A stretch of 41,618 bases of DNA from a virus: positions 1-41,618 of the IMG/VR virus record IMGVR_UViG_3300026116_000018; one strand, 5' to 3'. A model generated the notes under the pieces. It was given only the letters and a program-made list of their open reading frames with translations. It was not told the DNA's origin and made no database searches. A program made the position numbers and the translations under genes. This document shows, in pieces, positions 1-12,446 of the stretch. Positions within the stretch are counted from its first letter, which is position 1, and each line of letters begins with the position of its first letter.

Positions 1-99
1 GCCGCCGCACCCTCGGCGCGCGCATCCGCCTCGCTGATCTCCTGCAGCCGCTGCACGCGCACGTCAGTGATCTCCAGCGTGATGCGGCTGGCCCGGCGC
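1..99. repeat. Left copy of 99-bp terminal direct repeat (circular assembly overlap)
   Basis: Bases 1-99 are identical to 41520-41618. A 99-base exact end overlap is what a k-mer assembler leaves on a circular or circularly permuted molecule. The repeat lies inside a gene whose reading frame is intact only when the ends are joined, so it is better read as assembly overlap than as a biological terminal repeat. Confidence 0.95.
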
Positions 100-494
100 G
101 GCATGAACATCGGCTGCCGGTACTTGCCAAACCCGGGCTGATGCTGGGCATCCGCCTCGTACCAGATGCGAAAGGCTGCGTCCATTTCTCGCGGAGGCAC
201 TGGATCCGCTTCCGCGCACGCGCGCCACGCTTCCCGCACCCAGAGCCTGTCACCGGGATGGCCGTAGGGGCATGGTGTCGGCCAGCAGCGCTCCTCCCAG
301 GACGTGCGGCTCTGCGACTCCAGCACCCAGCCGCCCGGGTATTGGTGCGCATGGAGGCCGCTGAATCCAAGGTTGAGCCCTGGCGTCAACTGGCGCCACT
401 TCACGACCCGCCGCTTCTGCGTCTTCGTGCCGGCCAGCAAGGCGAGCACCTCGGGCGCGCTCATGAGGATGGGGCGCTCTTTCTTGTCAGCCAT
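1..494 (-). CDS. ASCH/PUA-like phage protein, N-terminal part (gene crosses the circular join)
   Basis: Starting at ATG 494-492 the frame stays open to base 1 and continues at 41519, ending with TGA at 41402-41404, which gives a 203-aa protein. Visible motifs are a GDRLWVREAWR segment, a Y-E-A-D segment and an [12 protein letters not shown] segment followed by a [12 protein letters not shown] helix. This is the usual layout of phage proteins annotated as ASCH-domain or morphogenetic proteins, whose exact role is unknown; ASCH/PUA folds bind RNA or modified bases. The start overlaps the stop of the preceding zinc-ribbon gene by one base, and its own stop overlaps the xis start. It is therefore a coupled member of the leftward early operon. 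Confidence 0.85.
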   Translation of the reverse strand, partial: MADKKERPILMSAPEVLALLAGTKTQKRRVVKWRQLTPGLNLGFSGLHAHQYPGGWVLESQSRTSWEERCWPTPCPYGHPGDRLWVREAWRACAEADPVPPREMDAAFRIWYEADAQHQPGFGKYRQPMFMPRRASRITLEITDVRVQRLQEISEADARAEGAA

Positions 495-688
495 CATTGC
501 CTGGCCTTGGTGGTGTATGTGACATCAACGATTCGACTCACAAGGAACGACTGTCCGCATTCGTCGCATTCGTGCTCGCCGTCGCCATCAAGGCCCGGCC
601 CAAGATTCCACTCCCAGGCATCCCGGTGCATGTGGCCGCAGTGCGGGCAGGTCGGCCACGCCGTGTGCGTTGTGTCGATGGCGCTCAC
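494..688 (-). CDS. Small zinc-ribbon protein
   Basis: This 64-aa product starts with GTG (688-686), which overlaps the upstream TGA in a GTGA arrangement. An AGGAG-like ribosome binding sequence sits in the end of the preceding gene. Two Cys pairs, CPHCGH and CDECGQ, are spaced as in a zinc ribbon, with two His residues after the first pair (CGHMH). No catalytic motif is visible. Such proteins are common filler genes in early phage operons and may bind nucleic acid or protein, but the specific function is not recognisable. The tight overlaps with both neighbours support it as a genuine gene. Confidence 0.75.
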   Translation of the reverse strand: MSAIDTTHTAWPTCPHCGHMHRDAWEWNLGPGLDGDGEHECDECGQSFLVSRIVDVTYTTKARQ

Positions 689-1539
689 GTCTTCTGCTCC
701 TGCTGCTGGTCCATGGCGGCATCGGTCACCATATCCATCGCCTCGGCCGTCGTGACGTAGGTGCGCGTCAGGTCAAGGCCCACCGATGCAGCAACCTCCA
801 TGCGACACAGCGCGTACCAGCGCATGCGCCACCAGCGCCACCGCTTCGCATCCACCTCCGCCGCCAGTGCGCGCGCCTCGGATGCTGCGAGCTTGGCGGT
901 CAGTTCCGCGATGCGCGCATCCTTCGCCGCCATGGTCGCGAGGTAGTCGCGCTGGCGGATGAGTGCGTCGTCGCCTAGGTCGTGTGGCATGCCTTTCGCC
1001 CACTTCAGCATCTGCATGCCGGAGCCAATCGGCTCGTACTTCGCCACCACCGGACACGATTCGTCCTCTGCAAAGACGCTTTCGATCTGCGCAAGCGCCC
1101 GTTCCGCCGTCAGCTCAACCCTGGGCGCCGCCACCGGACGCGCCGCATCGCCGGACAGTTGCGCACCAAGCTCGCCGGCCATCCGGATGCAATCGACCAT
1201 CGCCAAGACGGATGCACGCGCCTCTTCAACGGCATTCGCGAGTGCCCGATCCTCCCAATCAGCGATGTCTCGAAGCACGTCCTGCATCACGGATGCAGCC
1301 CGGCGCAGCGTCGCCTCGTCGTCTATGGAGCCGCACCAGCCGTGGTATGCGCCGGCCGGCCGCGCCAGCCCGCCAAGCTGCCGCACCTGCGCCTCGTAGT
1401 GCGCGTGGGCGTCGGCGAGGATGGCGCGACAGAACGCCAGAGTTTCCCCCCATCGACCGTTAAACGGTCTGGAGCGCTGCTTGAAGCCGATTACCTCGTC
1501 GTCGCTTGGCGAGTATGGCTGCAGGTTGTTGGTGCTCAT
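685..1539 (-). CDS. Hypothetical protein with C-terminal coiled coil
   Basis: The product is 284 aa from ATG 1539. The longer frame reading upstream is Arg/His-rich and overlaps the next gene, so this start was chosen. The N-terminal third holds a helical segment with one Trp-Cys-Gly cluster (YHGWCGS). The middle has a KYEPIGSGMQ-like segment. Residues roughly 220-255 form an Ala/Glu/Lys-rich predicted coiled coil (KDARIAELTAKLAASEARAL), followed by a Trp/Arg-rich patch (RWRWWRMRW). Start and stop overlap the flanking genes (ATGA/GTGA), so it is translationally coupled in the leftward operon. I do not recognise the family. Confidence 0.7.
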   Translation of the reverse strand: MSTNNLQPYSPSDDEVIGFKQRSRPFNGRWGETLAFCRAILADAHAHYEAQVRQLGGLARPAGAYHGWCGSIDDEATLRRAASVMQDVLRDIADWEDRALANAVEEARASVLAMVDCIRMAGELGAQLSGDAARPVAAPRVELTAERALAQIESVFAEDESCPVVAKYEPIGSGMQMLKWAKGMPHDLGDDALIRQRDYLATMAAKDARIAELTAKLAASEARALAAEVDAKRWRWWRMRWYALCRMEVAASVGLDLTRTYVTTAEAMDMVTDAAMDQQQEQKT

Positions 1540-1778
1540 GAGTTCCCAGTCAATGATTCGGCGTGCTCGCGACGCATGCGCGCGTCGCTCTCGGTGGTGA
1601 TGCGCACCTCGACGCCATCCGGCCTGTCGAGGACCAGCAGCGTCCAGGACTCCGGCGCGAATGCTTCGCGGCAGGCCTCCATGTCGGCCTGGGTGATCTG
1701 CAGCGAGCGGGCCCCGGTGAGCTTCCACAGGGCTGCGGCCAGCACCCGCTCGCGGTCGGTGAGTTCGGTGGTGCTCAT
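1536..1778 (-). CDS. Hypothetical 80-aa protein
   Basis: A compact acidic protein with an N-terminal helix (DRERVLAAALWKLTG), then a probable beta region (WTLLVLDRPDGVEVRIT). Its ATG overlaps the stop of the 23-aa ORF upstream and its TGA overlaps the start of the next gene, so it is part of the tightly packed leftward operon immediately downstream of the DGR reverse transcriptase. No family was recognised. Composition and spacing support a real gene. Confidence 0.7.
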   Translation of the reverse strand: MSTTELTDRERVLAAALWKLTGARSLQITQADMEACREAFAPESWTLLVLDRPDGVEVRITTESDARMRREHAESLTGNS

Positions 1779-1846
1779 GCCGCCTCCCGCGCGCCAGCGT
1801 GAAGCGCCTCGATGTAGGCAGCCAGCGCGGTTTCCTGTTCGGGCAT
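1775..1846 (-). CDS. Possible 23-aa small protein directly after the reverse transcriptase
   Basis: A 24-codon ORF starts at ATG 1846, two bases after the RT stop codon (1849-1851). It has a strong Shine-Dalgarno sequence, AGGAAAGG, about 6 bases upstream, formed by the last RT codons. The peptide is acidic and helical (MPEQETALAAYIEALHAGAR). Its stop overlaps the start of the next gene. It could be a genuine microprotein or a reinitiation leader coupling translation from RT to the downstream genes. Confidence 0.45.
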   Translation of the reverse strand: MPEQETALAAYIEALHAGAREAA

Positions 1847-1848
1847 GG

Positions 1849-2913
1849 TTAACCTTTCCTGAATGTCTTGGTGAGATCGCCGCTGACGCAGCGGCCGCGG
1901 CGCAGAACGGCGCGGCCTAGGCGCGCCTGCTCGGTGTGGCTGTTGGTGGCCTGCCTGACCATGCCAAAGTAGCTGTTCGCAAGCGCAAACAGCGCTTCTT
2001 CCTCGGCGTGCTGCAACTTGCTGATCGCGCTGTTGAGCGTCCGGCGCCTGGTGGTTCGCCGCCACGGTTTGATGACATGGCCCACGAAGTCAATGCCGCG
2101 GTCGACCGGCTGCAGTACCGTCTTCTTGGCGTTGAGCCGCGCGCCCAGCCTGCCTGGCAGGAAAGTCTCGATGTCTGCCAGCGCTGAGCGCAGCCAGTTC
2201 TGGTCCTCGTGCAGGAGCACGAAGTCGTCGACGTAGCGGACGTAGCGCGTGGCTCGCAGCACGTGCTTGACGTGCTGGTCGAGCGCATCGAGGTAGACGT
2301 TCGCGAAGAACTGAGACGAAAGGTTCCCGATGGGCAGCCCCTTGCCGGTTGGCGCTGCCATCAGGCGCTTGTGCGGCGGCACCAGCTGCAGCAGCTCGCG
2401 GCGGCCCTGGATCTCGACATCGCGGCGCGGGTCGTGCATCAGCACCGTGTTCGTGAGCCAAAGCCACCACGGTTCGGTGATGTGCTTGGCCAGCTGTTCC
2501 CGCAAAACTACCTTGTCGATCGAGACAAAGAAGTTGGCCAGGTCGCACTTCAGGTAGAAGGCGGGCTTCGACCAGTTCTCGGTGATGCTTCGCACCTGGT
2601 GCTCCAGGCGGTTGGCGGCGTAGAGCGTGCCGCGGCCCGGAATGCAGGCGCAGGTGTCGGCCGTGAAGCGCGCGTAAAAACGAGGCGAGATGCGGTTGTA
2701 GAGGAGGTGGTGGACGATGCGGTCCCGAAAGTCCGCTGCCCACACCTCACGCGGCCGTGGCCGTGTCACGACAAAGCATATCGACCGGCCTGGCGTGTAG
2801 GTTCCGGCGATCAGCTCTGCGTGCAGGTCGCATAGGTTGCGCTCGACGTTGGCCTCGAAGGCCAGTGCACTCGCGCTGTTGCGCTTGGTGCGTCTGCAAT
2901 CGATGTAGGCCAT
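1849..2913 (-). CDS. DGR reverse transcriptase (error-prone retrohoming)
   Basis: A DGR-type reverse transcriptase of 354 aa if started at ATG 2913. Motif A is KCDLANFF (Asp about 124). The DGR-diagnostic motif 4 is GLPIGNLSSQ (residues 192-201), where group II intron and retroviral RTs have QG. The catalytic YVDD is at 227-230, followed by a thumb with conserved helices. There is no maturase, endonuclease or RNase H domain. It should copy the template-repeat RNA with mutations at adenines and, with Avd, direct cDNA into the variable repeats. The start is uncertain: conserved LFEQL residues lie just upstream of Met1 (a TTG at 2931), and the same frame is open through the TR back to an ATG at 3216 that overlaps the avd stop (455 aa). 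Order avd-TR-RT matches the Bordetella phage BPP-1 arrangement. Confidence 0.95.
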   Translation of the reverse strand: MAYIDCRRTKRNSASALAFEANVERNLCDLHAELIAGTYTPGRSICFVVTRPRPREVWAADFRDRIVHHLLYNRISPRFYARFTADTCACIPGRGTLYAANRLEHQVRSITENWSKPAFYLKCDLANFFVSIDKVVLREQLAKHITEPWWLWLTNTVLMHDPRRDVEIQGRRELLQLVPPHKRLMAAPTGKGLPIGNLSSQFFANVYLDALDQHVKHVLRATRYVRYVDDFVLLHEDQNWLRSALADIETFLPGRLGARLNAKKTVLQPVDRGIDFVGHVIKPWRRTTRRRTLNSAISKLQHAEEEALFALANSYFGMVRQATNSHTEQARLGRAVLRRGRCVSGDLTKTFRKG

Positions 2914-2934
2914 GACGAGCTGCTCGAACAAGTC

Positions 2935-3041
2935 TGAATCTGCGGACGGCTCTGGCGCGCAGCTCGGCGCTCTTGTGGTTGTTGTTCTGGTTGCCGTTGT
3001 TGAAGTTCTGGTACCACGCGTTGGACGCGCCGGCCTGCTCA
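2935..3041 (-). repeat. DGR template repeat (TR)
   Basis: About 107 bp between avd and the RT core. On the minus strand it is rich in AAC codons, the usual TR design. It matches four variable repeats elsewhere (3625-3723, 6553-6659, 8028-8134, 9701-9803). Between 2942 and 3040, differences occur only where the coding strand has A: 20 of about 28 adenines are altered in at least one VR and no other base is altered in any. The GC-rich segment at the 2942-2970 end, shared by all copies, is the expected initiation-of-mutagenic-homing (IMH-like) part. The segment 2914-3212 otherwise has no separate gene that I can support. Confidence 0.95.
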
Positions 3042-3212
3042 ATGTCGTGCGATCTACATCGCCTGGCCGAAGGCTTTCGCCGATCAGCCTGGCAACTGCG
3101 CTGGGCCCGGCCTGCCTGCTGGCAGCGGTCTCCGTGGTGCGCATGGCGGTGGCCTCGTGAGCCAGCGGCACGACCAGATTCAAATTGCGCACGGGCATGT
3201 GGGCCTTGACCG

Positions 3213-3578
3213 TCATGCTGCAGGCGCCTTGTTCGCTGCGGACTTGAGCCACCCGCCACCCTGCCTTCCGATGCTGTCGAGCAGCGCGACGGACTTCGCC
3301 CAGAGGGCATGCGAGACGTAGCGGCTGTCGTGGCTGACGCGCAGGAGCACCGTGGTCGCGCGCAGGTGCGTCATCAGCGCGTGGATGTGGCCGGCGCGCT
3401 CGCCTTGTTTGGTGGCATTGGCAAGCGCCATCCGGTCGAGCATCTCGGTGCAGTGCTGCGAGATCTTGTCGCCCAGCGATCGCTTCACGCCGCGCGGCAT
3501 CTGCTCCTGCACCTGGACGGCCAGTTGCAGCAACTGCACCCCGGTGCGGTAGATCGGCAGGTCCGTGTGGATGGCCAT
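3213..3578 (-). CDS. avd: Avd-like DGR accessory variability determinant
   Basis: A 121-aa, basic, nearly all-helical protein. The opening segment (DLPIYRTGVQLLQLAVQVQEQMPRG) and the four predicted helices are typical of Avd, the small barrel-forming four-helix-bundle protein that binds the DGR RT and TR RNA and is required for cDNA synthesis. It lies 25 bp downstream of the first target gene and directly upstream of the TR and RT, as in BPP-1. Its TGA (3213-3215) overlaps an ATG at 3216-3214 in the RT reading frame. No strong Shine-Dalgarno is seen, so coupling to the upstream target gene is likely. Confidence 0.9.
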   Translation of the reverse strand: MAIHTDLPIYRTGVQLLQLAVQVQEQMPRGVKRSLGDKISQHCTEMLDRMALANATKQGERAGHIHALMTHLRATTVLLRVSHDSRYVSHALWAKSVALLDSIGRQGGGWLKSAANKAPAA

Positions 3579-3586
3579 GGCTCAAG

Positions 3587-3606
3587 TCAAAAGGATTGAA
3601 GGATCA
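3587..3606 (-). repeat. Conserved 3' flank of variable repeat 1
   Basis: A 20-bp segment beginning at the stop codon of the first target gene. It matches the flanks of targets 2 and 3 with one mismatch (core TCCTTCAATCCTTTTGA here). The TR has no copy of it, so it was not delivered by retrohoming. It may be a remnant of gene duplication or a VR-side cis element for homing. Confidence 0.7.
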
Positions 3607-3975
3607 AGCGGTAAGCTGAATCAAGCGGACGGCTCTGGCGCGCAGCTCGGCGCTCTTGTGGGTGCCGTCCTGGAAGCCGTTGTCGAAGTACTGGCACCAC
3701 GCGCCGGACGCGCCGGCCTGCTCGCATGTCCAGTACCAGTCATCCTTGAACTGGCCTTTCAGGTGCATGAACAGCAGCGCGGAGAGCGGCCGCGTTGGCA
3801 GCGCCGCGCCGATGCCTGCGGCCCAGGCCATTGCATCCTTCCAGGTCATCTCGCCGCCCGGCTCGTCTGCCAGCAGGACGACGGCGCAGTTCGTGCCATC
3901 TGCGGCCGTGGTCAGGCCGGCGAAGAGGCCGCCTTCGAGCGGCTGACCGATGGCCGGTATGTCTTTCAAATGCAT
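3604..3975 (-). CDS. DGR target protein 1 (DUF1566/C-type-lectin-like, variable C-terminus)
   Basis: The product is 123 aa from ATG 3975, chosen because a GGAG ribosome binding site lies about 5 bases upstream; longer upstream reading is Thr-rich and has no support. The order is a beta-rich N-terminus, then TWKDAMAWAAGIGAALPTR (typical of the DUF1566/Lcl C-terminal fold), DWYWTCEQAGAS, and a variable segment ending in SAELRARAVR. The variable residues are those encoded by AAC, TAC or nearby A-containing codons in the TR. It is the target next to avd and the most divergent of the four outside the VR (e.g. WTC where the others have WSS). Its ligand is unknown. There is no signal peptide or tail-fibre domain. 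Confidence 0.88.
   Translation of the reverse strand: MHLKDIPAIGQPLEGGLFAGLTTAADGTNCAVVLLADEPGGEMTWKDAMAWAAGIGAALPTRPLSALLFMHLKGQFKDDWYWTCEQAGASGAWCQYFDNGFQDGTHKSAELRARAVRLIQLTA
3625..3723 (-). repeat. DGR variable repeat 1 (VR1)
   Basis: Aligned to TR 2942-3040 without gaps. There are 11 substitutions, all at TR adenines on the coding strand (TR positions 2979, 2982, 2983, 2986, 2991, 2992, 3001, 3007, 3012, 3021, 3022). Homology to the TR breaks at both ends. Confidence 0.95.
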
Positions 3976-4009
3976 GGGTTCTCCAGGTGCGCCGGTGTCC
4001 CGGCATGTG

Positions 4010-4615
4010 TCACGGTTGATGAACGGGAAACGAGTGAGAGTTCCGCGCGTAGTCGAGCTCGTGGTATTTGTCGAGCCACCTGTCACGCCAGTCTTCCCAG
4101 GTAGCGGCCATGCGCTCCGGGCTGTTCAGCCGGACCCAGCCGATCGGCTGGGTCCCGGCCAGCGCCGACCACGGTGTTGGGGTGGCCGGCATCAGGTCGC
4201 GCTTCTCGGTGGCCAGCGCCATAAGGTCTGCGATGCGGATGTCCTGGCCGTGCGCCACGAACACCGTGCTCACCGCAAATGCGCTGCGCACACGGCGCAG
4301 CCAGCGCTCTTCCCACTGGCGCCATGGCAGCCCGATTTCCGCCTTGTGGGGGCTGGGCAGGTCGGCGCCGCAGTAGGGCTCGTGAGCATCGTGCAGCAGC
4401 GCGGCCAGCTGGCCGTAGACGTTGAGACCGAACTCGCGTTCCACGATCTCGCACACCAACAGGGAGTGCTCGGCCACGCTGTAGGGCCGCCGCGCATGCC
4501 CGGCGAAGCGGTTGAGTTGGCTCAGGGCCCATGCAGTGCTGCCAGCGGTGAACTGGCCAGGCTGCGGAAACCTGGTGTCCATCTCGGCGCCCTCTGCTGT
4601 CACGATGAAGGTCAT
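4010..4615 (-). CDS. HD-domain phosphohydrolase (YfbR-like)
   Basis: The product is 201 aa. Metal-binding HD-domain residues are visible: the segment YSVAEHSLLV (His about 50), then ALLHDAHEPY (His-Asp about 75-76) and a further His in LPSPHK. This is the pattern of phage and bacterial YfbR-type 5'-deoxynucleotidases that hydrolyse dNMPs. An N-terminal FPQPGQFTAGSTAWALSQLNRFAG segment, split by convention here, is characteristic of phage members. In this operon it could adjust nucleotide pools or act as a nucleotide-signal hydrolase; the substrate is inferred from family only. It sits between DGR target 1 and the DUF2303 gene. Confidence 0.85.
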   Translation of the reverse strand: MTFIVTAEGAEMDTRFPQPGQFTAGSTAWALSQLNRFAGHARRPYSVAEHSLLVCEIVEREFGLNVYGQLAALLHDAHEPYCGADLPSPHKAEIGLPWRQWEERWLRRVRSAFAVSTVFVAHGQDIRIADLMALATEKRDLMPATPTPWSALAGTQPIGWVRLNSPERMAATWEDWRDRWLDKYHELDYARNSHSFPVHQP

Positions 4616-4638
4616 GGTGGCTGCGCTCCAGGCCTACG

Positions 4639-5505
4639 TCACAGGCTGCCCAGGCGCAGCGGCGCCGGGTTCACCGCCGCCCTGACGGACTCGATCAGTT
4701 CCTTGGCTGCGGCTTCGTGCACGCGATCCGCACGGATCAGTTCGTACCTGAATGTGAGCTTGCCGCCCGCGGTGCTGTACTTCAGTCTGGCCGTGATCTG
4801 CCACGGCTGGCCGCCCCAGAAGACCGGGATGCCGATGCCGAAGCGCTCGAAGACCTTCATGTCGGCCACGGTCTGGTCGTCGGCGTCGTTGATGTACTCC
4901 AGTCGAGCGCCACCATCCTGCAGGCGAATCGCCGACTTGAACCGCATCTCCTGCCGCGCCACGAAGTTGGTGGCCATGGTCTTGAGTTGCAGCAGGGTCG
5001 GCAGGCCGTTCGCCTCGGCGAAATCCTCCTCGTGGTTCTCGATCCATTCGGCGAATTCCACCTGGCTCATCGGTTTGCCGTGCATGCCGAGCCATGCCTT
5101 CCACTCCGCGCTCAGCATCGGCGTGAACGTCGCCTTGTGGCCGCGCCAGCCGGCCTGCGCCGGCGTGTGCTCATCGATCACGCCAACGAACGAGAGGGCG
5201 TAGGACTGGGGGTTGAATCCGCACCAGACGGTCGCTCCGTTGTCGTCGGTGCGATGGTGCCGAACGTAGTCTGTGAAGCTGGCAGCATCGATGAGCGTGG
5301 CTGACGCCACCGTGCGGCGCGGGTTGTCCAGCAGCCGTTCCAGGTCGATCTCTTCGAGCCGCTGGCCCTGCGGCAGGGCCACGTGGAGCAGGCTGGCGTT
5401 TTCATTCGTGATGAGTTCGGCCTTTGGAAGCACGCGCGCCAGCGTGGCGGCAAGGTTCTCTGCCGCGGCCGCGTGTGGTTGGCCGCCCTTGGTGTCGATG
5501 GTCAT
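4639..5505 (-). CDS. DUF2303 (YfdQ) family protein
   Basis: The product is 288 aa, the usual length for the DUF2303/YfdQ family found in lambdoid prophages. Recognisable segments are an N-terminal helical region, a central TPMLSAEWKAWLGMHGKPMSQ segment with EFAEWIENHEEDF, and a C-terminal beta region ending in a FRYELIRADRVHEAAAKEL helix. The function of the family is not established; genes of this type sit in early phage operons next to recombination or anti-host functions. It is followed, in the direction of transcription, by the HD hydrolase and preceded by a small protein often found beside it. I see no catalytic signature. Confidence 0.85.
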   Translation of the reverse strand: MTIDTKGGQPHAAAAENLAATLARVLPKAELITNENASLLHVALPQGQRLEEIDLERLLDNPRRTVASATLIDAASFTDYVRHHRTDDNGATVWCGFNPQSYALSFVGVIDEHTPAQAGWRGHKATFTPMLSAEWKAWLGMHGKPMSQVEFAEWIENHEEDFAEANGLPTLLQLKTMATNFVARQEMRFKSAIRLQDGGARLEYINDADDQTVADMKVFERFGIGIPVFWGGQPWQITARLKYSTAGGKLTFRYELIRADRVHEAAAKELIESVRAAVNPAPLRLGSL

Positions 5506-5562
5506 GGTGAGCTTGGCTCCTTGTGGTGATCGGTTGATGCGGTGGTTGTGTGGCCCAGCCCG

Positions 5563-5919
5563 TCAAGCCGTCTTGATCTCGCCGGTTTCCTGGTCGATGG
5601 TCCGCGGCGCATGCTTGACCTCCGGTACCGCCCGCAGATCCAGCGTGCGCTGGTTGGGGTTGGTCATCTGCAGGTTGCCCTCCACCGTGGGCCAGAGCAG
5701 CGTGTCATCGGCCTTGGGTTCCGGCACCTTGGTCTTCACGTCGGCAGCAATGGCCACTGCGCCGGCCGACTTCTTGAGCTTCAGCGTGATCGTCAGCGTG
5801 CCGGCCTTGCCGGTCTCGTCCACGCCCTTTACCAAGGCGGCCAGTTGTTCACTGGCCCGGTCGCTGAACCTGCCTTCCTCCAGCAGGCGCAGCGTGTCGG
5901 TGATAGGTTTGATGCTCAT
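5563..5919 (-). CDS. Hypothetical 118-aa protein accompanying DUF2303
   Basis: N-terminal helix (ITDTLRLLEEGRFSDRASEQL) followed by beta strands (GTLTITLKLKKSAGAVAIAADVKTKVP) and a C-terminal segment PRTIDQETGEIKTA. The last motif, DQETGEI, recurs in small early phage proteins. The gene lies upstream of DUF2303 in the same operon and probably works with it. Family function is unknown. The composition is balanced and unlike the Arg/Pro-rich shadow frames, which supports the call. Confidence 0.75.
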   Translation of the reverse strand: MSIKPITDTLRLLEEGRFSDRASEQLAALVKGVDETGKAGTLTITLKLKKSAGAVAIAADVKTKVPEPKADDTLLWPTVEGNLQMTNPNQRTLDLRAVPEVKHAPRTIDQETGEIKTA

Positions 5920-6010
5920 GAGTCCTCGGTTGATTGGGTGTGGGCCGGTCCAGGTGGTCAGGCCGTGCGCGCCGGCCTGAGCCGCGCATCGCGCCTGCGT
6001 CGTTCTCTCT

Positions 6011-6514
6011 TCAGTGCCTCCGGGACCGCGTCAGCCGCTCCACCATGCGCTGAGCGATGGCAGCCGTGCGATGCCATGCAGCCGCCAGCCGTTCGTGGCA
6101 GGTTTCCGGCCGCTGGTCGGTTGTCAGCGGCGGGCGGGGGTCCTCATCGCGTGGGCCGGGTGTGCCTCCACCGGCGCCGGCGGATGGCTCGGATCTCCCG
6201 GCGGCCGCGGTGCATGCGGCCCGCGCCGCTTCTGCGGCGTCGGCATCCATCACGTCGGCGAGCGCGGCGAATATCAGCATCCGTGCCACGTCGTTGGGCG
6301 GCTGCAACTGGTCGGCCAGCACGGCCGATGCGGTCCAGGCTGGGCAGCCGTTTGGCTGGCTGGAAACCAGGGCTCGGATCGTGCTGACATACACGCCGGC
6401 CAGCAGTTCGTAATGACGCCCACAGAGCGTGCGGGCGGCCTCGCGGTTCTTGTGGACGATCGCGACCAGTTGATCTACGTCGCCCTGGCTGGGTGGGAGG
6501 AACGTGATGCTCAT
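6011..6514 (-). CDS. Hypothetical 167-aa protein
   Basis: The N-terminal two thirds look like a helical domain (DQLVAIVHKNREAARTLCGRHYELLAGVYVS and VARMLIFAALADVMDAD segments). A Gly/Pro-rich low-complexity linker (about residues 110-135) and a short basic C-terminal helix ending in RSRRH follow. It is immediately downstream of DGR target 2; the ATG at 6514 follows the target's conserved 3' flank by about 13 bases. No family was recognised. The low-complexity linker suggests two modules. Confidence 0.65.
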   Translation of the reverse strand: MSITFLPPSQGDVDQLVAIVHKNREAARTLCGRHYELLAGVYVSTIRALVSSQPNGCPAWTASAVLADQLQPPNDVARMLIFAALADVMDADAAEAARAACTAAAGRSEPSAGAGGGTPGPRDEDPRPPLTTDQRPETCHERLAAAWHRTAAIAQRMVERLTRSRRH

Positions 6515-6527
6515 GCTCTGGCTCGGC

Positions 6528-6547
6528 TCAAAAGGACTGAAGGATCA
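6528..6547 (-). repeat. Conserved 3' flank of variable repeat 2
   Basis: A 20-bp stretch starting at the target-2 stop codon (core TCCTTCAGTCCTTTTGA). It is identical to the target-3 flank and one base different from target 1. It is absent from the TR side. Confidence 0.7.
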
Positions 6548-6931
6548 AGCCTTGAATCTGCGGACGGCTCTGGCGCGCAGCTCGGCGCTCTTGCGGGTGT
6601 TGTCCTGGGTGCCGAAGCCGAAGTACTGGCACCACGCGTAGGACGCGCCGGCCTGCTCAGACGACCAGTGCCAGCCGGCCTCGATGCGCTGCTTGCAGTT
6701 GGCGTACATGAGCGCCAGTTCCTGCCGCGTTGGCAGCGTGCCGCCGGCGCTCTCGGCCCAGGCCATGGCACTCGTCCAGGACATGCGGGTGTCCGGCACG
6801 GCCGCCATCAGCACCAGGTGGTGCCCCGGTTGGCCGGCGGCGTCCAGCACCAGGCCTGCGTAGTGCTCGCCCGGCTGCAGTTCCGGCAGCGTGATGTGCG
6901 TCTCAGATGTTTGGTCAGTGGTCTCGGTCAT
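6545..6931 (-). CDS. DGR target protein 2 (DUF1566/C-type-lectin-like)
   Basis: The product is 128 aa from ATG 6931; the upstream in-frame ATG at 7012 would overlap the preceding gene. A short polar N-terminus is followed by LQPGEHYAGLVLDAAGQPGH, then SWTSAMAWAESAGGTLPTRQ, GWHWSSEQAGAS and the VR, ending RARAVRRFKA. The TLPTR and WSSEQ signatures place it in the DUF1566-type lectin fold used by several DGR targets. Its invariant scaffold is very close to targets 3 and 4, indicating duplication within the phage lineage. Variable residues include Y, G, F, T and D at positions encoded as Asn in the TR. Ligand and location are unknown. Confidence 0.88.
   Translation of the reverse strand: MTETTDQTSETHITLPELQPGEHYAGLVLDAAGQPGHHLVLMAAVPDTRMSWTSAMAWAESAGGTLPTRQELALMYANCKQRIEAGWHWSSEQAGASYAWCQYFGFGTQDNTRKSAELRARAVRRFKA
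6553..6659 (-). repeat. DGR variable repeat 2 (VR2)
   Basis: Matches TR 2935-3041 with 11 substitutions, all at TR adenines (TR positions 2976, 2979, 2986, 2991, 2997, 2998, 3000, 3001, 3007, 3012, 3022). All other bases, including the GC-rich IMH-like end, are identical. Confidence 0.95.
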
Positions 6932-6981
6932 GGGGTGCTTTCTGTCGGTACAAATGCATGGTCGCGAGGCGTGCGGCACGC

Positions 6982-7278
6982 TCATCCCTGTGTTGCTCGT
7001 GCGCCGTCCCAATTTGCTTCTTCGAGGGCCGTGTGCAGCGCGTCCAGGAACGGCTCGTCAGCAGCCATGACGCCGCCGGCCTCCAAGTGGTCCGCGATGC
7101 TCTGGGCAGCGGCCACCAGCCGTGGCGCGGCGATGAGGAGATGGGCGATGCGGATCTGCTGGCGCATCGTCGCGCCGTGGACGTCGGCGATCACGGTGCC
7201 TTGCGCGTCAACGACCTGGGTCGTGTACAGAGCCGTGGCTGGGCCCATGGACCACGGCTCCGGGGCGCCGGTGCTCAT
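6982..7278 (-). CDS. Hypothetical 98-aa protein
   Basis: Start ATG 7278 overlaps the upstream stop (7275-7277); longer reading upstream is a shadow of the next gene. The product has an N-terminal beta segment (ALYTTQVVDAQGTVIADV) followed by two helices (IAHLLIAAPRLVAAAQSIADHLEA and FLDALHTALEEANWD). A similar helical segment, with an AAPRLVAA-like core, is common in small Burkholderiales phage proteins of unknown function and is echoed in the 9287-9649 product (CAPALRRVAAEL). It lies just upstream of DGR target 2. Confidence 0.7.
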   Translation of the reverse strand: MSTGAPEPWSMGPATALYTTQVVDAQGTVIADVHGATMRQQIRIAHLLIAAPRLVAAAQSIADHLEAGGVMAADEPFLDALHTALEEANWDGARATQG

Positions 7279-7574
7279 GCCAGCACCCGGGCGGCGTAGC
7301 TCACCAGGGCGACGCACAAGGCGCCGATCGAGATCGTGATCACCACGAGGCGCAGCACGAAAATGTTCTTCTCCTGCTCGGTCACGCGCTGTTCCGCGGC
7401 CAGATCTATCACGGCCGGGCAGTCTCGGCCCTGCGTGCACCTGGCGTCACAGCAGAAGCGCTCCGGCTGCCCTGCCCGGCGGGCCATCGGCTGCGTGTCA
7501 TGCGCGCAGCCTGGCTGGCCCAGCATGTACTGCCGGCCACGGGATGGGAACGGAATGGGCGGTCGTTGAGCCAT
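7275..7574 (-). CDS. Small Cys-rich protein with C-terminal membrane anchor
   Basis: The product is 99 aa from ATG 7574. The first half is polar and basic. A cysteine cluster, FCCDARCTQGRDCP, lies at about residues 48-61. The last 30 residues form one hydrophobic segment (FVLRLVVITISIGALCVALV) ending in a short polar tail. The layout is that of a tail-anchored inner-membrane protein with a cytosolic metal-binding knuckle. Function is unknown; in an early operon it could be an exclusion or host-membrane effector. Its stop overlaps the next start. Confidence 0.7.
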   Translation of the reverse strand: MAQRPPIPFPSRGRQYMLGQPGCAHDTQPMARRAGQPERFCCDARCTQGRDCPAVIDLAAEQRVTEQEKNIFVLRLVVITISIGALCVALVSYAARVLA

Positions 7575-7608
7575 GGCGATCTCCAAGCAAAGATCCCGGG
7601 TGGCCGGG

Positions 7609-7962
7609 TTACTGCGGCAGGTCCAGCGGTTGGGTGTGGCGGAAGTCCGCGATGGGGCGGAAGCGCCGCTGCGACTCCTGGCGGACCATTTCGACCACGC
7701 GGGAACCCGTGATGGGCGGCATGGCCGGCCGCAGCGCGCGGTCGTTGGCGGCCCGCGTCCGAGCCAGTTTTTCCTGCGCCTCGCGCAATTCCTTGGCATC
7801 GCCCCAGCCCTTGATCGCGATGGCTGCAGCAATGATGGTGACGGCCAGCGCGATGGCGCCGATGCCGGCGTACATCGGGTTGACGCCGTCGATCTGTGTC
7901 ACTTGGCGCGGCTGGGCGCCGGCAACGGCGCAGAAGGCGCAGGGGTTGTACGAGGTGGTCAT
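7609..7962 (-). CDS. Hypothetical single-pass membrane protein
   Basis: The product is 117 aa. The N-terminus contains CAFC, then a hydrophobic transmembrane segment (YAGIGAIALAVTIIAAAIAI, about residues 31-50). A charged helical stretch (DAKELREAQEKLARTRAAND) likely forms a coiled coil, and the tail is basic and polar. It lies just downstream of DGR target 3 and upstream of another small membrane protein. Two adjacent small membrane proteins between DGR targets 2 and 3 is notable. No family was recognised. Confidence 0.7.
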   Translation of the reverse strand: MTTSYNPCAFCAVAGAQPRQVTQIDGVNPMYAGIGAIALAVTIIAAAIAIKGWGDAKELREAQEKLARTRAANDRALRPAMPPITGSRVVEMVRQESQRRFRPIADFRHTQPLDLPQ

Positions 7963-8002
7963 GGTGTGCTCCGTGACGTGGGTTGCTGGTGTTGTGGGTG
8001 GG

Positions 8003-8022
8003 TCAAAAGGACTGAAGGATCA
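8003..8022 (-). repeat. Conserved 3' flank of variable repeat 3
   Basis: 20 bp identical to the target-2 flank (6528-6547), beginning at the stop codon of target 3. The target-4 stop region has a related CCTTC-repeat version (about 9674-9697). Confidence 0.7.
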
Positions 8023-8619
8023 AGCCGTGAATCTGCGGACGGCTCTGGCGCGCAGCTCGGCGCCCTTGTGGAGGTAGCCCTGGTAGCCGTAGCTGAAGTA
8101 CTGGCACCACGCGTAGGACGCGCCGGCCTGCTCAGACGACCAGTGCCAGCCGGCCTCGATGTGCTGCTTGCAGTTGGCGAACAGCAGGGCCTGCTCCTTC
8201 CGCGTGGGCAACACGCCGCCGACGCTCTCGGCCCAGGCCATGGCGGCTGCCCAGTTCAGTTCGCCATCCGGGGCGGCGGCCATGAGCACCAGGTGATGCA
8301 GGTGCTGGCCCTGGGCATCGAGCACGACACCGGCATAGTGCTCGCCGGGCCGCAGGCTGACCGGCGGGGTGGCGCATGTAGGTGCAGCCTGGGCCTCTTG
8401 GTGCCTCGCGGTGGCGCGGCCGATCACGGCCGCACGCTCATGGTGGCGGGTGGCGCCATCCGTGCCCAGGCCAGCCTGTTCGGACTGTCTGGCGAACTCC
8501 GCCTGTTGTCGGGTCGTCATGCAGCTCAGGGCCAGCATCAGCAGCTGGTGGGCGGCGCGCAGCTCGTCGAGCATGTCATCGGCCAGGGGCTGCGGCGCAG
8601 GATGTTCTTTGGCGTCCAT
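8020..8619 (-). CDS. DGR target protein 3 (helical N-domain plus DUF1566-like lectin domain)
   Basis: The product is 199 aa from ATG 8619 with an AAGGA ribosome binding sequence upstream. It is the longest target: an added N-terminal helical domain (about residues 1-85, with LADDMLDELRAAHQLLMLAL) precedes LRPGEHYAGVVLDAQGQ, NWAAAMAWAESVGGVLPTRK, GWHWSSEQAGAS and the VR. The lectin scaffold is nearly identical to target 4, implying a recent duplication, but the N-terminal domains differ. The different N-domains could give each target a separate partner or location while sharing one diversified binding surface. There is no signal peptide. Confidence 0.88.
   Translation of the reverse strand: MDAKEHPAPQPLADDMLDELRAAHQLLMLALSCMTTRQQAEFARQSEQAGLGTDGATRHHERAAVIGRATARHQEAQAAPTCATPPVSLRPGEHYAGVVLDAQGQHLHHLVLMAAAPDGELNWAAAMAWAESVGGVLPTRKEQALLFANCKQHIEAGWHWSSEQAGASYAWCQYFSYGYQGYLHKGAELRARAVRRFTA
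8028..8134 (-). repeat. DGR variable repeat 3 (VR3)
   Basis: Matches TR 2935-3041 with 12 substitutions, all at TR adenines (2971, 2979, 2980, 2983, 2985, 2986, 2992, 2998, 3000, 3007, 3012, 3022). It includes a Ser-to-Gly change close to the IMH-like end, so mutagenesis reached TR position 2971. Confidence 0.95.
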
Positions 8620-8685
8620 CGAGATCGTCCTTCATGTGGTTGGGCTACTGGCACGCGTATGGCGCCATCTATCGCGGTCTGTGCG

Positions 8686-8940
8686 TCAGGTGATGAGGCT
8701 CAGCCACTGCTCGGCGGCGGCCTTGGCGACTTGCAGGTTGCGGAACTCGACCTGCGGCTCCAGGTGACCCTGGGCGAACTCCAGCTCCACGGTCACGACG
8801 AAGCCGTTGGTGGTGACCCGGGCGCCGGCGCTGCGGCCGGGCATGCGCCCATACAGCACACCACCGCCGGCGGGTGTCCAATGGACCGCTGACCCCAACT
8901 GGGTGGGGCGGCGCGCAGAGGTGCAGGGCAATGCGCTCAT
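8686..8940 (-). CDS. Hypothetical 84-aa protein
   Basis: A small product whose ATG (8940-8938) overlaps the upstream TGA (8937-8939). The second half looks like a beta hairpin (GFVVTVELEFAQGHLEPQVEF) plus a helix (AKAAAEQWLSLI). It sits just upstream of DGR target 3 in the operon. No family was recognised. The tight ATGA coupling is the main support. Confidence 0.65.
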   Translation of the reverse strand: MSALPCTSARRPTQLGSAVHWTPAGGGVLYGRMPGRSAGARVTTNGFVVTVELEFAQGHLEPQVEFRNLQVAKAAAEQWLSLIT

Positions 8941-9290
8941 GCTGCAGCCCTCGGCGTGGCATCGTCATGCCATACCACCACATCGCTCTCGCGGCGCAGC
9001 AGGCCCTGCTGCGGGTAGCGTGTGTACAGGTGCTGTTCGCCCCGCGGGGCGTCCTGCCACTCGAAGAATGGCAGGACGCGCGCATCCACGGCCAACAGTG
9101 CAGCGTTTTCTTCCTCGTGCTGCGTGGCCATGGCGGCCAGTTGGTCGGTGCTGGTGGTCATGCCGCTCGGATGCCACCACTCCAGGCTGGCCCAGGTCAC
9201 CGACTGGGCCATCTGCGCGGCTGCGAAGTCCGCGGCCATGGCGGCCTGCTCGTTCTCATGGAGGCGGGGCAGGGTGCAGACGGCGTTCAT
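8937..9290 (-). CDS. Hypothetical 117-aa protein
   Basis: Start ATG 9290 is chosen because it overlaps the preceding stop (9287-9289); upstream in-frame sequence is Arg/His-rich shadow. An N-terminal helix contains HENEQAAMAADFAAAQM, followed by WASLEWWHPSG and, further on, a mixed region with FFEWQDAPRGEQHLY. The product is Trp-rich and acidic. No family was recognised. It lies between DGR targets 3 and 4. Confidence 0.65.
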   Translation of the reverse strand: MNAVCTLPRLHENEQAAMAADFAAAQMAQSVTWASLEWWHPSGMTTSTDQLAAMATQHEEENAALLAVDARVLPFFEWQDAPRGEQHLYTRYPQQGLLRRESDVVVWHDDATPRAAA

Positions 9291-9649
9291 GACGCGCTCC
9301 CGATGGCCACGATGGCCTTGTCCATGGCGGCATGCGCGCGGGCGATGCGGCGGCAGGTGGCGCACTGGTCCTGCGGCGACAGGCCGTCGTGGCACATGTT
9401 TCCGGCCGGAGGCAGCGGCGGCGCCACGTCCTGCAGTGCGGCCAGCAGTTCCGCGGCCACGCGGCGCAGCGCTGGGGCGCAGGCGAGCAGCCGGGCCAAC
9501 GGCTCATTCGGCCCGGCCCAGGTGGCCGCCACGCAGCGGCCGGCGTCGTCCAGGATGCGGTGCATGAGCACCTCGCCCGTGATGGGCGACACCACGGGCT
9601 CGACGCGGAGCGGCCGGGTGGGATCGTCTGCGGTCTGGGTGGTGGTCAC
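9287..9649 (-). CDS. Hypothetical 120-aa protein with CxxC motif
   Basis: The N-terminus is a beta region (VSPITGEVLMHRILDD), followed by a helical middle (LLACAPALRRVAAELLAAL) and a C-terminal CATC pair with an upstream Cys (NMCHDG) that could form a zinc knuckle. Its stop overlaps the next start. It is immediately downstream of DGR target 4. The central helix resembles that in the 6982-7278 product, hinting at a shared origin of the small genes beside each DGR target, though the similarity is weak. Confidence 0.65.
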   Translation of the reverse strand: MTTTQTADDPTRPLRVEPVVSPITGEVLMHRILDDAGRCVAATWAGPNEPLARLLACAPALRRVAAELLAALQDVAPPLPPAGNMCHDGLSPQDQCATCRRIARAHAAMDKAIVAIGSAS

Positions 9650-9694
9650 ATTGGCTCCATCAGTGGGGTGTGAAGGATTGAAGGACCGAAGGAT

Positions 9695-10225
9695 TCAGAC
9701 TCTGCGGACGGCTCTGGCGCGCAGCTCGGCGCTCTCGTGGAGGCTGTCCTGGTCGCCGTAGTAGAAGCTCTGGCACCACGCGTTGGACGCGCCGGCCTGC
9801 TCAGACGACCAGTGCCAATCCGCCACGAGGTGCTGCCTGCAGTTGGCGAACAACAGGGCCTGCTCCTGCCGCGTGGGCAACACGCCGCCGACGCTCTCGG
9901 CCCAGGCCGTGCCGGCTGCCCAGTTCAGTTCGCCCTCCGGCGCTGCGGGCATCAGCACCAGGTGATGCAGGTGCTGGCCCTGGGCATCGAGCACCGCGCC
10001 GGCGTAGTGCTCGCCGGGCTGGAGGTTCAGGGGGGTTGCGGCGGCGAGTGCGACGCTGGCGGCTTCGATGGCCGGTCGCGAGTCGTTCGGGACACCGTCG
10101 AGTTCGTAGCGGGCCACCAGGGCGCGCAGCGCCTCCAGCAGCGTGGGCGGGGCGACGGGGGCTTGGGCTTCGGCCTCTGCGTTGAGACGGAGGTCAGGAG
10201 CGGCTGCGGGCTGGGTGGGGGTCAC
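9695..10225 (-). CDS. DGR target protein 4, first gene of the leftward operon
   Basis: The product is 176 aa with a GTG start at 10225, preceded by GGAGAG at good spacing, about 30 bases downstream of the predicted PL start. The N-terminal domain (about 1-70) is Ala/Pro-rich with a helix TLLEALRALVARYELDG; then come LQPGEHYAGAVLDAQGQ, NWAAGTAWAESVGGVLPTRQ, DWHWSSEQAGAS and the VR ending RARAVRRV. The scaffold is almost the same as target 3. As the promoter-proximal gene it should be the most strongly expressed of the operon. It retains Asn at the first variable position, as in the TR. Confidence 0.88.
   Translation of the reverse strand: MTPTQPAAAPDLRLNAEAEAQAPVAPPTLLEALRALVARYELDGVPNDSRPAIEAASVALAAATPLNLQPGEHYAGAVLDAQGQHLHHLVLMPAAPEGELNWAAGTAWAESVGGVLPTRQEQALLFANCRQHLVADWHWSSEQAGASNAWCQSFYYGDQDSLHESAELRARAVRRV
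9701..9803 (-). repeat. DGR variable repeat 4 (VR4)
   Basis: Matches TR 2939-3041 with 10 substitutions, all at TR adenines (2974, 2979, 2980, 2982, 2986, 2992, 2998, 3001, 3006, 3012). One includes a Lys-to-Glu change, at 2974. Confidence 0.95.
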
Positions 10226-10260
10226 TGGGCTCTCCAGGCGACCGGGGTGGTCGATGGATG

Positions 10261-10300
10261 AATATTAGTCCGACTGTTTGCATGAGTCAACAGTCAGACT
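10261..10300 (-). promoter_or_regulatory. PL-like promoter with paired operators
   Basis: On the minus strand, -35 TTGACT (10290-10285) and -10 TAATAT (10267-10262) are separated by exactly 17 bp. Two 9-bp palindromes, AGTCCGACT (10267-10275) and AGTCAGACT (10292-10300), lie 25 bp centre to centre and cover the -10 edge and the region just upstream of the -35. The predicted start is near 10255, upstream of DGR target 4. The same arrangement recurs at 11288-11326, as expected for phage repressor operators. Confidence 0.8.
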
Positions 10301-10467
10301 GATATTCCACGAAGAGACCGACGCAATCGTGAAAATTACCCGTTCCGCGAGCAGCGGGAGCGAAAAGGTGCGGGCCTAGGACTCCAAAACTTGAGCCTGT
10401 GATAGCGTCAAGCAGCGCTGGCCGCGAGCCCAGAAGTAGGCCGCGAGCAGCCTACTGGAGTACGGCG

Positions 10468-10692
10468 ATGAAATGGTTGCTGTTGATGCTCGGTGGCTTC
10501 GTTGTCCTATCCCTCTTGTTTGGGAAATCAGACCCGAAGGCGCAAGAGAGGATGAAGGCGCGCGCCGCCATCCAGCTATGCTGGAAAGACTACGAACGCA
10601 GGTCCCTCAGCGAAGCCGAGAAACAGTTCATCGCCGGGGCTTGCGAGAGGATGGAAGCGAACTTCGAGACGAAGTACAACGCCAGGCCCTAG
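10468..10692 (+). CDS. Small membrane-anchored or exported protein, candidate lysogenic moron
   Basis: The product is 74 aa from ATG 10468, with GGAG about 7 bases upstream. A hydrophobic N-terminal segment (WLLLMLGGFVVLSLLFG) is followed by a charged domain with two Cys (QLCWKDYERRSLS and GACERMEANFETKY). It is transcribed convergently to the repressor, separate from both lytic operons. This is the typical place for genes expressed in the prophage (superinfection exclusion, host traits). The 10301-10467 stretch upstream holds no clear gene, and I could not identify a convincing promoter there. Confidence 0.7.
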   Translation: MKWLLLMLGGFVVLSLLFGKSDPKAQERMKARAAIQLCWKDYERRSLSEAEKQFIAGACERMEANFETKYNARP

Positions 10693-10707
10693 TTGCCGAG
10701 TTCCGTG

Positions 10708-11250
10708 TCAACGAGAGTGCCGCTGTCCGGATTTCTCCCCATCTGCCGGCGGCAGATCAAGCCCAACCAGGGTCATGGCGGCCTCGAATCGACCTTTCCG
10801 CTCCTCGCTCGCTGCGTCGTAGATGCGGGCGATTTGAATGGCTCTGGGGCTGAGCTTTTCGAGTAGCGCACTGGTGCCCACCACGTACATGCCGACCGGC
10901 TCTTGAGCTGTCAGGGTCTGGCCGGTGGTGGCGGTTGATTCGCTCCGTGTGCTCGGTGCGTCAAGCCACCTCCGCGCTGCCGCCACGGCAGATGCGTTGA
11001 TCGACGGGCTGATCAGATCCGGACTGACGCTCAGCAAAGTGGCGAACTTGAGCAGCACATCCTGGTTCGGCGGGATCTTCCCGCCCAGATACTGCGCCAG
11101 AGCGCTCTGCCCGAAACCGAGCTGATCGGCCAGCTCCAGCTGTGAGTGCGGCTGGCCAGCTTCCTTGAGCTTGGTTTGGTGCGAGTCGAAGAGCCGCCGG
11201 AGGCGTGCGGCGTCCTGTCGCTGTTCTGGTGTGAGTGGCTTGGCAGGCAT
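10708..11250 (-). CDS. CI-like phage repressor (HTH XRE) without S24 peptidase domain
   Basis: The product is 180 aa. An XRE-type helix-turn-helix covers about residues 35-80 (SQLELADQLGFGQSALAQYL then GKIPPNQDVLLKFATLL). The C-terminal half has a small beta-helix region (GMYVVGTSALLEKLSPRAIQIARIY) but no Ser-Lys autocleavage motif, so RecA-stimulated self-cleavage is not evident. It lies between the two operator pairs and divergent from the Cro-like gene, the classic immunity layout. It should bind the AGTCNGACT operators and shut off PL and PR in the lysogen. A TAATAG about 10 bases upstream of its ATG could be a weak maintenance-promoter -10. Confidence 0.88.
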   Translation of the reverse strand: MPAKPLTPEQRQDAARLRRLFDSHQTKLKEAGQPHSQLELADQLGFGQSALAQYLGGKIPPNQDVLLKFATLLSVSPDLISPSINASAVAAARRWLDAPSTRSESTATTGQTLTAQEPVGMYVVGTSALLEKLSPRAIQIARIYDAASEERKGRFEAAMTLVGLDLPPADGEKSGQRHSR

Positions 11251-11287
11251 TCCGTCACGCTATTAGCCGACCTCATGCACCGCAAAC

Positions 11288-11333
11288 AGCCCGACTGTTG
11301 TGTTTTACAAGCAGTCGGACTAATATTGCATGC
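11288..11333 (+). promoter_or_regulatory. PR-like promoter with paired operators; near-leaderless start
   Basis: -35 TTGTGT (11298-11303), 17-bp spacer, -10 TAATAT (11321-11326). Operators AGCCCGACT (11288-11296, one mismatch) and AGTCGGACT (11313-11321) are again 25 bp apart. The sequence from the second operator through the -10 is the same as at PL. The expected transcription start, about 7 bases after the -10, falls at the cro-like ATG (11334), so the mRNA would be leaderless or nearly so. Confidence 0.75.
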
Positions 11334-11753
11334 ATGAGCGCACTCAAAGCCATCCGCGGCCTGCTTCGTGTCACCCAGGCTGAGCTCGGCGAGGCCCTCG
11401 GCGTCACCCAGGGCAATGTGTCCTTCTACGAGCGCGGGCAGACCATCCCGCCAGATATCGCCGGCCGCGTGCTTGACTTCGCGCGCAGCCGCGGGCTTCA
11501 CATCACGTACGACCACCTCTACGGTGGCGCGGCTCTACCCGACTCGTCGGCAGAGCGGCCGGTAGCTGTCAGCCAGATTGCGCATCACGCACCTGCCGGC
11601 AACCTGCCGGCCCTGCAGCCGGACGATTACCCGCCGGTGAAGCAGCGCACCGAGCGCGGCTCCGTGCAGGTGCTCCACGCTCCGCGCACAGCGCTGGGCG
11701 CCGGTGGTGAGACGGGCCCGGACACCTCCGGGCAGGAGGCCGTCCATGCGTGA
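11334..11753 (+). CDS. Cro-like HTH regulator
   Basis: The product is 139 aa from ATG 11334; longer reading upstream crosses the operator and is a shadow. XRE-type HTH spans about residues 3-50 (IRGLLRVTQAELGEALGVTQ then NVSFYERGQTIPPDIA). The C-terminal half is Pro-rich and disordered and contains LQPDDYPPVKQRTERGS, a motif repeated in the next gene product. As the first gene from PR and divergent from the repressor, it is expected to act as Cro, antagonising the repressor at the same operators. No Shine-Dalgarno precedes it, consistent with leaderless initiation. Confidence 0.85.
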   Translation: MSALKAIRGLLRVTQAELGEALGVTQGNVSFYERGQTIPPDIAGRVLDFARSRGLHITYDHLYGGAALPDSSAERPVAVSQIAHHAPAGNLPALQPDDYPPVKQRTERGSVQVLHAPRTALGAGGETGPDTSGQEAVHA

Positions 11754-12060: not shown

Positions 12061-12069
12061 AAGGCATCC

Positions 12070-12369: not shown

Positions 12370-12446
12370 CTCCCTGACGCGGCGCGAGGCCAGTCCGTGA
12401 CCATCGACACCACGCACTTCATGGCTGACCTCACCGCGGTGCGGCG

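Follow-up and report, generated by a model that had tools for sequence, protein, structure and literature searches.

Can one template diversify several genes of the same phage, and what kind of protein would such a phage be diversifying? Phage diversity-generating retroelements (DGRs) are usually explained as tail-retargeting devices. The question is raised by IMG/VR virus record IMGVR_UViG_3300026116_000018, a stretch of 41,618 nucleotides (positions 1 to 41,618; hereafter, the window), in which an earlier note, made from the letters alone, had described a DGR with a single template repeat (TR) and four genes each ending in a variable repeat (VR). Our analysis indicates that the window element is very probably a working or recently working DGR of a temperate phage, with one template, four targets and a structured RNA of the Rfam family RT-15.

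One template repeat and four variable repeats

The element lies on the leftward (minus) strand, where the order downstream of a repressor gene is T4, T3, T2, T1 (the four targets), avd, structured RNA, TR and reverse transcriptase (RT) gene. Repeat comparison placed the TR at 2933-3043, with a 99-nt core (2942-3040) that contains 28 adenines. Comparison of the TR with its VRs delimited four target genes on the same strand: T1 (3604-3975, VR1 at 3620-3726), in the slot directly upstream of avd; T2 (6545-6931, VR2 at 6550-6663); T3 (8020-8619, VR3 at 8025-8138), for which a predicted structure is also available; and T4 (9695-10225, VR4 at 9693-9807). The starts given for T1 and T2 are inferred. 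All four target open reading frames (ORFs) stop at the end of the VR or just beyond it.

Within the core, VR1, VR2, VR3 and VR4 differ from the TR at 11, 11, 12 and 10 positions, respectively, and all 44 mismatches fall on TR adenines. The variable core columns are adenines in 20 of 20 cases (hypergeometric p = 7e-15), ten of them at first and ten at second codon positions. Any two VRs differ at 10-13 positions, every one in an adenine column. The 71 non-adenine core columns, in contrast, are identical across the TR and all four VRs, and these common columns run up to the 3' end, GCCGTCCGC, while the 150 nt directly upstream of the VRs are only 59-91% identical between pairs of target genes. 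Such a sharp identity boundary at the VR edge points to repeated copying from one template. The proposal that a single TR serves four targets is thus well supported, each VR having its own set of adenine substitutions, and so is the proposed reach of about 7 kb: about 6.9 kb separate the RT from the most distant VR. No fifth VR was found when the TR region was searched against both strands of the 41.6-kb window.

We also observed a 32-nt repeat directly after VR1-VR3 (3578-3609, 6519-6550 and 7994-8025; 75-100% identical; on the coding strand, GATCCTTCARTCCTTTTGA), which is perhaps a candidate target-site element.

The RT gene (1849-2913, minus strand) matched RVT_1 with 59.1 bits and PHROG 1423 (RT) with 367.6 bits. 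Its start is uncertain, either ATG at 2913 or TTG at 2931; its motifs are intact and its frame has no stop. YVDD and IGNLSSQ were kept in all 80 RT relatives, so the loss of YVDD in close relatives, which the earlier note had named as a sign against the element, did not occur. The accessory protein Avd (121 amino acids; 3213-3578, minus strand) matched PHROG 3206, "Avd protein of DGR", with 81 bits. These matches to RVT_1, PHROG 1423 and PHROG 3206 confirm the DGR-type RT and the Avd-like protein recognized before. A structure search with the Avd sequence found no relative. A defence association was also considered and discarded, with no PADLOC match for the four targets, Avd or four neighbour genes; the RT matched 76 PADLOC models, the best being a general RT model (123 bits), with weaker matches to the defence-associated RT (DRT) models among the best 25 of the 76.

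A structured RNA on the 5' side of the template

The list of parts first drawn up for the element lacked one component. Between the avd stop and the TR, we identified a 192-nt structured RNA of the Rfam family RT-15 (RF03018; 3038-3229, minus strand), with 171.9 bits (gathering score 82; E 2.4e-42). Its end overlaps the TR, reaching 5 nt past the TR start in the window, and in all 15 cases measured the TR starts 2-8 nt before RT-15 ends. RT-15 was present in 14/14 loci, 3/3 phages and 35/35 further records (131-186 bits), and in none of 14 control genomes. In a 35-sequence alignment of the stretch from the avd end to the RT, 26 of 57 predicted pairs showed double-sided changes. Scanning positions 1-12500 of the window for the Phage_DGR RNA gave no match at E up to 1.

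This arrangement differs from that of BPP-1 (mtd/avd/TR/brt), a phage with one tail target and an RT 31.9% identical to that of the window. There, the TR follows avd directly and the Phage_DGR RNA (104.7 bits) lies 3' of the TR, whereas the window RNA lies 5'; the order avd-RNA-TR-RT seen here is the reverse of the avd-TR-RNA-RT of BPP-1. RT-15 would be the 5' half of the TR-containing RNA. In BPP-1, the 3' spacer has been described as recruiting RT-Avd and priming cDNA synthesis (cited part of PMC12875486). In the window, no more than about 20 nt separate the TR end from the possible RT starts, and because of this short distance BPP-1-type priming would have to differ here or else use sequence of the RT gene. 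The 5' position of the RNA suggests that the BPP-1 picture, in which a 3' spacer recruits the enzyme and primes the cDNA, may not be general. Other phages unlike the window in this respect include BalMu-1, where RT-14 (70.4 bits) begins at the TR 3' end (4765-4908 of locus L095); because of this position, RT-14 may be a 3' DGR RNA like Phage_DGR. ACA1 had a weak RT-14 match at the TR 3' end, under the gathering score, and in phiARM81mr a search of Rfam gave no match to a DGR RNA.

A different explanation for the RT-15 stretch is that it is translated as the N-terminus of the RT and is not an RNA element. In the window, the RT frame runs open across the TR and RT-15 as far as 3585, where an ATG overlaps the avd stop (ATGA). 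Of 147 loci, 108 kept the RT frame open across the TR and 90 across RT-15; the other two frames were open far less often (23 and 3 loci for the TR; 33 and 0 for RT-15), and 42 of the 147 had an NTGA overlap with an avd-length ORF in the RT frame. The RT-15 stretch, however, showed no codon periodicity: mismatch shares by phase were 0.317/0.335/0.347, against 0.237/0.201/0.563 in the RT gene, in loci hand-listed for an apparently open frame, 52 of 55 of which passed. Moreover, the RT frame was closed before or within the TR in 39 of the 147 loci, and the RT-15 scores across the 35 further records and the double-sided changes also count against a coding stretch. We therefore regard translation in place of an RNA element as very unlikely, while RT-15 as RNA and RT-15 as coding sequence could both be true at once. 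Leader indels that are multiples of three (49 of 51) were discarded as evidence for coding, because the loci had been chosen for an open frame and the result is circular. Two candidate long-range pairings, one between UCUGGU in RT-15 and the TR, the other between the 3' end of the TR and the RT gene, are not claimed, as the pairs hardly vary.

Distribution of the family and probable activity in relatives

We searched for relatives of the RT in a viral and a genome collection, and kept the best 80 loci of each, out of at least 596 and at least 567 confirmed relatives, respectively. No locus extends further than 10 kb upstream of the RT, which makes the VR counts minima. A TR/VR pair was found in 79 of the 80 viral loci; the exception, L017, holds 582 nt upstream. 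Prior to counting, VR-against-VR rows (TR coordinate -722 to -854) were removed from six viral loci (L028, L031, L045, L053, L063 and L080), and ten of the 80 loci were omitted: L017, with no VR, and nine duplicates or close relatives with 1-3 VRs each (L008, L013, L021, L023, L031, L039, L050, L056 and L057). Among the 70 remaining viral relatives plus the window, four had one VR, 47 had two, 18 had three and two (the window and L035) had four. The genome loci, whose hosts were Pseudomonas, Burkholderiales, Rhodocyclales and others, gave a similar picture, with TR/VR pairs in 76 of 80: six had one VR, 54 had two and 16 had three (the count of three for L175 includes two pieces of possibly one VR). 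The four without a VR were L109, with less than 800 nt upstream, L167, whose RT match begins at residue 37, and the distant L174 and L176. All the VRs, 160 in the viral set and 162 in the genome set, lie upstream of the RT on the RT strand, and the T1 slot directly upstream of avd is common to 70 of the 71 counted loci. Pseudomonas cyclaminis MAFF 301449 carries two separate DGR loci of the RT-15 family in one strain (L101 and L107).

Seven phage records were also scanned, three of them (phPA-G and Cruim01 among them) over the first 50,000 bases. Each had 2-3 VRs, the third VR of QDWS lying upstream across the origin of the circular record. Isolated phages carrying an RT-15-type DGR are Magia, Haboob, Cruim01 and QDWS. 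Similarity to seven integrases gave a match in 27 of 57 genome loci; in 25 it lay on the RT strand and downstream, with a median of 5.05 kb over all such matches. Similarity to seven repressor queries (the LPPA56 query being annotated as hypothetical) gave a match in 29 of 62; in 27 it lay on the RT strand and upstream, with a median of 7.7 kb. The RT-15-type DGRs form a large temperate-phage family of Beta- and Gammaproteobacteria. Since two targets are usual and three are frequent in the sampled loci, the four targets of the window mark the upper end of a multi-target family and are not singular.

Nor are multi-target elements new as such. DGRs with multiple VRs have been published since 2012, with up to four VRs (cited part of PMC3521204), and Stenotrophomonas sp. 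SKA14 has two TRs and six VRs, five of them in DUF1566 proteins (cited part of PMC6642488). The surveyed elements resemble that of the window in having one or two templates and several targets, a likeness by description and not by compared sequences; the cited parts of these two surveys do not discuss early phage operons or RNA position. Some gut-phage DGRs, as described in the cited parts of three papers, are likewise phage-borne with more than one VR, some distal (tentaclins, PMC10743442; PMC12629997, where the second VR is distal; Faecalibacterium prophages, PMC11792537). Unlike the window element, they have two VRs, and the targets described include receptor-binding or tail proteins. The four-target element, which the earlier note set apart from most described phage DGRs, is therefore not a one-off.

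Among the closest described systems is that of Burkholderia cenocepacia phage Magia (MT701587), which shares with the window an RT (65.1% identity), Avd, RT-15 before the TR, small lectin-fold targets and an operon running from repressor to integrase; it has three VRs, as compared to four. The cited part of its announcement (PMC7883833) presents Magia as a myophage and names genes 47 and 57 as potential DGR targets. We observed a third Magia VR (locus L087) at 32333-32429, in gene 46, beyond the two targets named in that part of the announcement.

Polymorphism at TR-adenine positions in related genomes had been proposed as a sign of activity, and we compared eight close pairs of relatives for it. 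L028 and L031 have 15 differences in 7,387 nt, of which 14 are in one of three VRs, all at TR adenines, with the other two VRs unchanged. Between L044 and L050 there are 32 VR differences, all at adenines, and 8 elsewhere; between L038 and L039, 14 VR differences, all at adenines, and 6 elsewhere; and between L015 and L034, 44 VR differences, all at adenines, and 656 elsewhere. The TR is identical within each of the eight pairs. The expected polymorphism is thus seen in some relatives (four of the eight close pairs), and the DGR family is probably active in some of its members. The description of the four targets as independently randomised is supported in these relatives; for the window itself it is suggested by the substitution pattern.

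Several observations weigh against reading the window element as a working DGR of this type. The other four close pairs had no VR change, and a near-identical record of the window phage was not found with search tools that may omit such records. Avd missed two cut-offs, those of Pfam bAvd (38.5 bits; cut-off 40) and NCBIfam Avd (47.1 bits; cut-off 80). The RT-15 gathering score was reached by just two of seven distant relatives (45-51% RT identity), and, as noted above, similarity revealed an integrase in only 27 of 57 genome loci and a repressor in only 29 of 62. Finally, a TAC codon in the TR is TGC in all four VRs; because the same codon appears in four VRs, this column is not independently randomised, and it may reflect either selection for cysteine or a recent change of the TR. 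The shared TGC and the four unchanged pairs would also be accommodated by a decaying remnant, in which the RT or some of the VRs no longer function in the window phage. The RT motifs and open frame argue otherwise, as does the match of all 71 non-adenine columns to the TR in four VRs whose flanks have diverged, and we consider such decay highly improbable.

If the window element is indeed working or was so recently, the leftward operon would be transcribed downstream of the repressor, yielding a shared RNA that carries avd, RT-15, the TR and the RT gene. RT-15 would be the part of this RNA bound by RT and Avd. By analogy with BPP-1, RT and Avd would make a cDNA copy of the TR that carries errors opposite adenines, and this mutated cDNA would replace the 3' ends of T1-T4.

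Predicted lectin-fold targets in an early operon

The window, as characterized by profile searches (Pfam and PHROG), has the gene set of a temperate phage: lambda-type terminase and portal, capsid, tape measure, DnaB helicase, a helix-turn-helix (HTH) repressor, a divergent HTH regulator and an integrase. The repressor-like gene (10708-11250, minus strand; HTH_3 29.1 bits, PHROG 4 transcriptional repressor 31.1 bits) heads the leftward operon, and the divergent regulator (11235-11753, plus strand; HTH_3 30.3 bits) is Cro-like by position; these matches bear out the early leftward location proposed for the DGR. The four VRs lie in this early operon and not in the structural (tail) module, and between the DGR parts there are a DUF2303 gene, a deoxynucleoside monophosphate (dNMP)-phosphatase-like gene and other small ORFs. 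The tyrosine-type integrase (40096-41349, minus strand; Phage_int_M 28.7 bits, cut-off 27; PHROG 7244 and PHROG 1 integrase) would end the same operon if the record is a permuted genome. By comparison, the DGRs of BPP-1, BalMu-1, phiARM81mr and ACA1 lie among structural or lysis genes.

The same location recurs in the family. Five phages (Magia, Haboob, QDWS, phPA-G and Cruim01) have an annotated repressor as well as an annotated integrase, and all 13 of their VRs lie between the two; the VRs found in the seven scanned records lie outside annotated or positional structural genes. The tail genes of these phages differ: a tail sheath is encoded by Magia and a baseplate-J protein by QDWS, and neither gene is named in the annotations of Haboob, Cruim01 and phPA-G, over the parts covered.

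The lectin regions of the targets are related to different degrees: that of T3 is 80% identical to T4 (112 amino acids), 75% to T2 (111) and 46% to T1 (137), while the N-termini differ from each other. The lectin regions of T2, T3 and T4 appear to be recent copies placed on different N-termini. The panel of four proposed earlier is therefore present in full, but its members are not equivalent, T1 being only about 46% identical to T3 and occupying the avd-adjacent slot.

We modelled one target, T3, with ColabFold, from an alignment of 37 window and locus proteins. The model had a mean predicted local distance difference test (pLDDT) score of 87, with 91-98 per ten-residue block from residue 91 onward, and comprised a helical hairpin (residues 14-77) followed by a C-type-lectin domain (about 86-199). 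BPP-1 Mtd has a C-type-lectin fold too. The predicted T3 domain thus agrees with the lectin-like character suggested from sequence. Its nearest structures were Legionella Lcl (8q4e; Foldseek E 7.4e-6; VIA-align Z 13.2, 115 residues, root-mean-square deviation (rmsd) 4.3) and Bdellovibrio Bd2740 (8oks; Z 14.3, 100 residues, rmsd 2.1), with intimin ranking lower; a profile search with the targets also reached HbP1/Lcl 8q4e at E 9.7e-6. The Lcl C-terminal domain (PF07603) has the same fold, but the targets are short, have no counterpart of the long collagen-like part of Lcl, and carry a VR as their loop region. Pfam Lcl_C scored 16-26 bits on the four window targets, under the cut-off of 34.9, and was matched at E 0.01 or better by 33 of the 37 aligned targets, for which Lcl_C and FGE-sulfatase were the sole Pfam matches.

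These results bear on whether the targets are virion adhesins or decoration proteins that happen to be expressed from the early operon, in which case the element would be an ordinary tropism-switching DGR with its targets elsewhere. The nearest folds are those of adhesin-type domains, and the targets align to the C-terminal end of PHROG 4245, a phage family of 583 positions with no assigned function, which could be a longer structural protein. In the cited part of Roux et al. (PMC8144416), viral targets are classed as structural or of no known function, most of those in DGR clades 1, 4 and 6 carry a tail-protein annotation, and change is steadier in structural proteins of viruses than in targets that are non-structural or cellular. 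Virion targets are nevertheless disfavoured because of the early operon (VRs between repressor and integrase in five of five phages), the different tail genes and the small size of the targets (median about 175-202 amino acids, with uncurated starts), with just the two Pfam families noted above. We consider this explanation unlikely.

The targets could also serve lysogenic conversion as surface proteins of the lysogen, comparable to the exported targets of some cellular DGRs. Two bacterial proteins, Lcl and Bd2740, have the same fold, and part of an operon that begins at the repressor gene might be expressed in the prophage. To look for export signals we used 160 target ORFs, picked automatically with uncurated starts and a few in the wrong frame (e.g., the distal one of L007). 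None had a lipobox-like motif in its first 40 residues, and 28 reached a mean 18-residue hydropathy of 1.6 anywhere, which suggests that most have no membrane segment. With no lipobox-like motif and few targets of membrane-like hydropathy, exported proteins are disfavoured, and a role at the lysogen surface seems quite unlikely.

The diversified targets are probably early, non-virion proteins. They would be intracellular proteins that bind a variable partner, from host defence or from competing phages, and would not be virion parts. Operon neighbours in other phages, namely DNA methyltransferases (Haboob, Cruim01, phPA-G and QDWS), a Lar-like restriction-alleviation protein (phPA-G) and a host nuclease inhibitor (QDWS), fit an anti-host-defence role of the targets, though they are not proof of it.

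The main interest of the window element lies in its class, a widespread family with an RNA on the other side of the template, more than in the number four. We tentatively propose that the RT-15 DGRs may be a distinct class, in which an RNA 5' of the template recruits RT and Avd and which gives temperate phages an early panel of hypervariable cytoplasmic binders against host defences or competing phages, in place of tail retargeting. We found no description of an early-operon DGR class with a 5' RNA in the literature searched, outside which lay the DGR classification and a structured-RNA paper. A large family in which two to four small early proteins are diversified, and whose phages do not have the same tail genes, suggests that programmed hypermutation has a second use, within an infected cell or a lysogen.

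The repressor gene of the window is itself flanked by an inverted pair of 41 nt (10261-10301 and 11287-11327; 80% complementary), whose two halves are possible operators.

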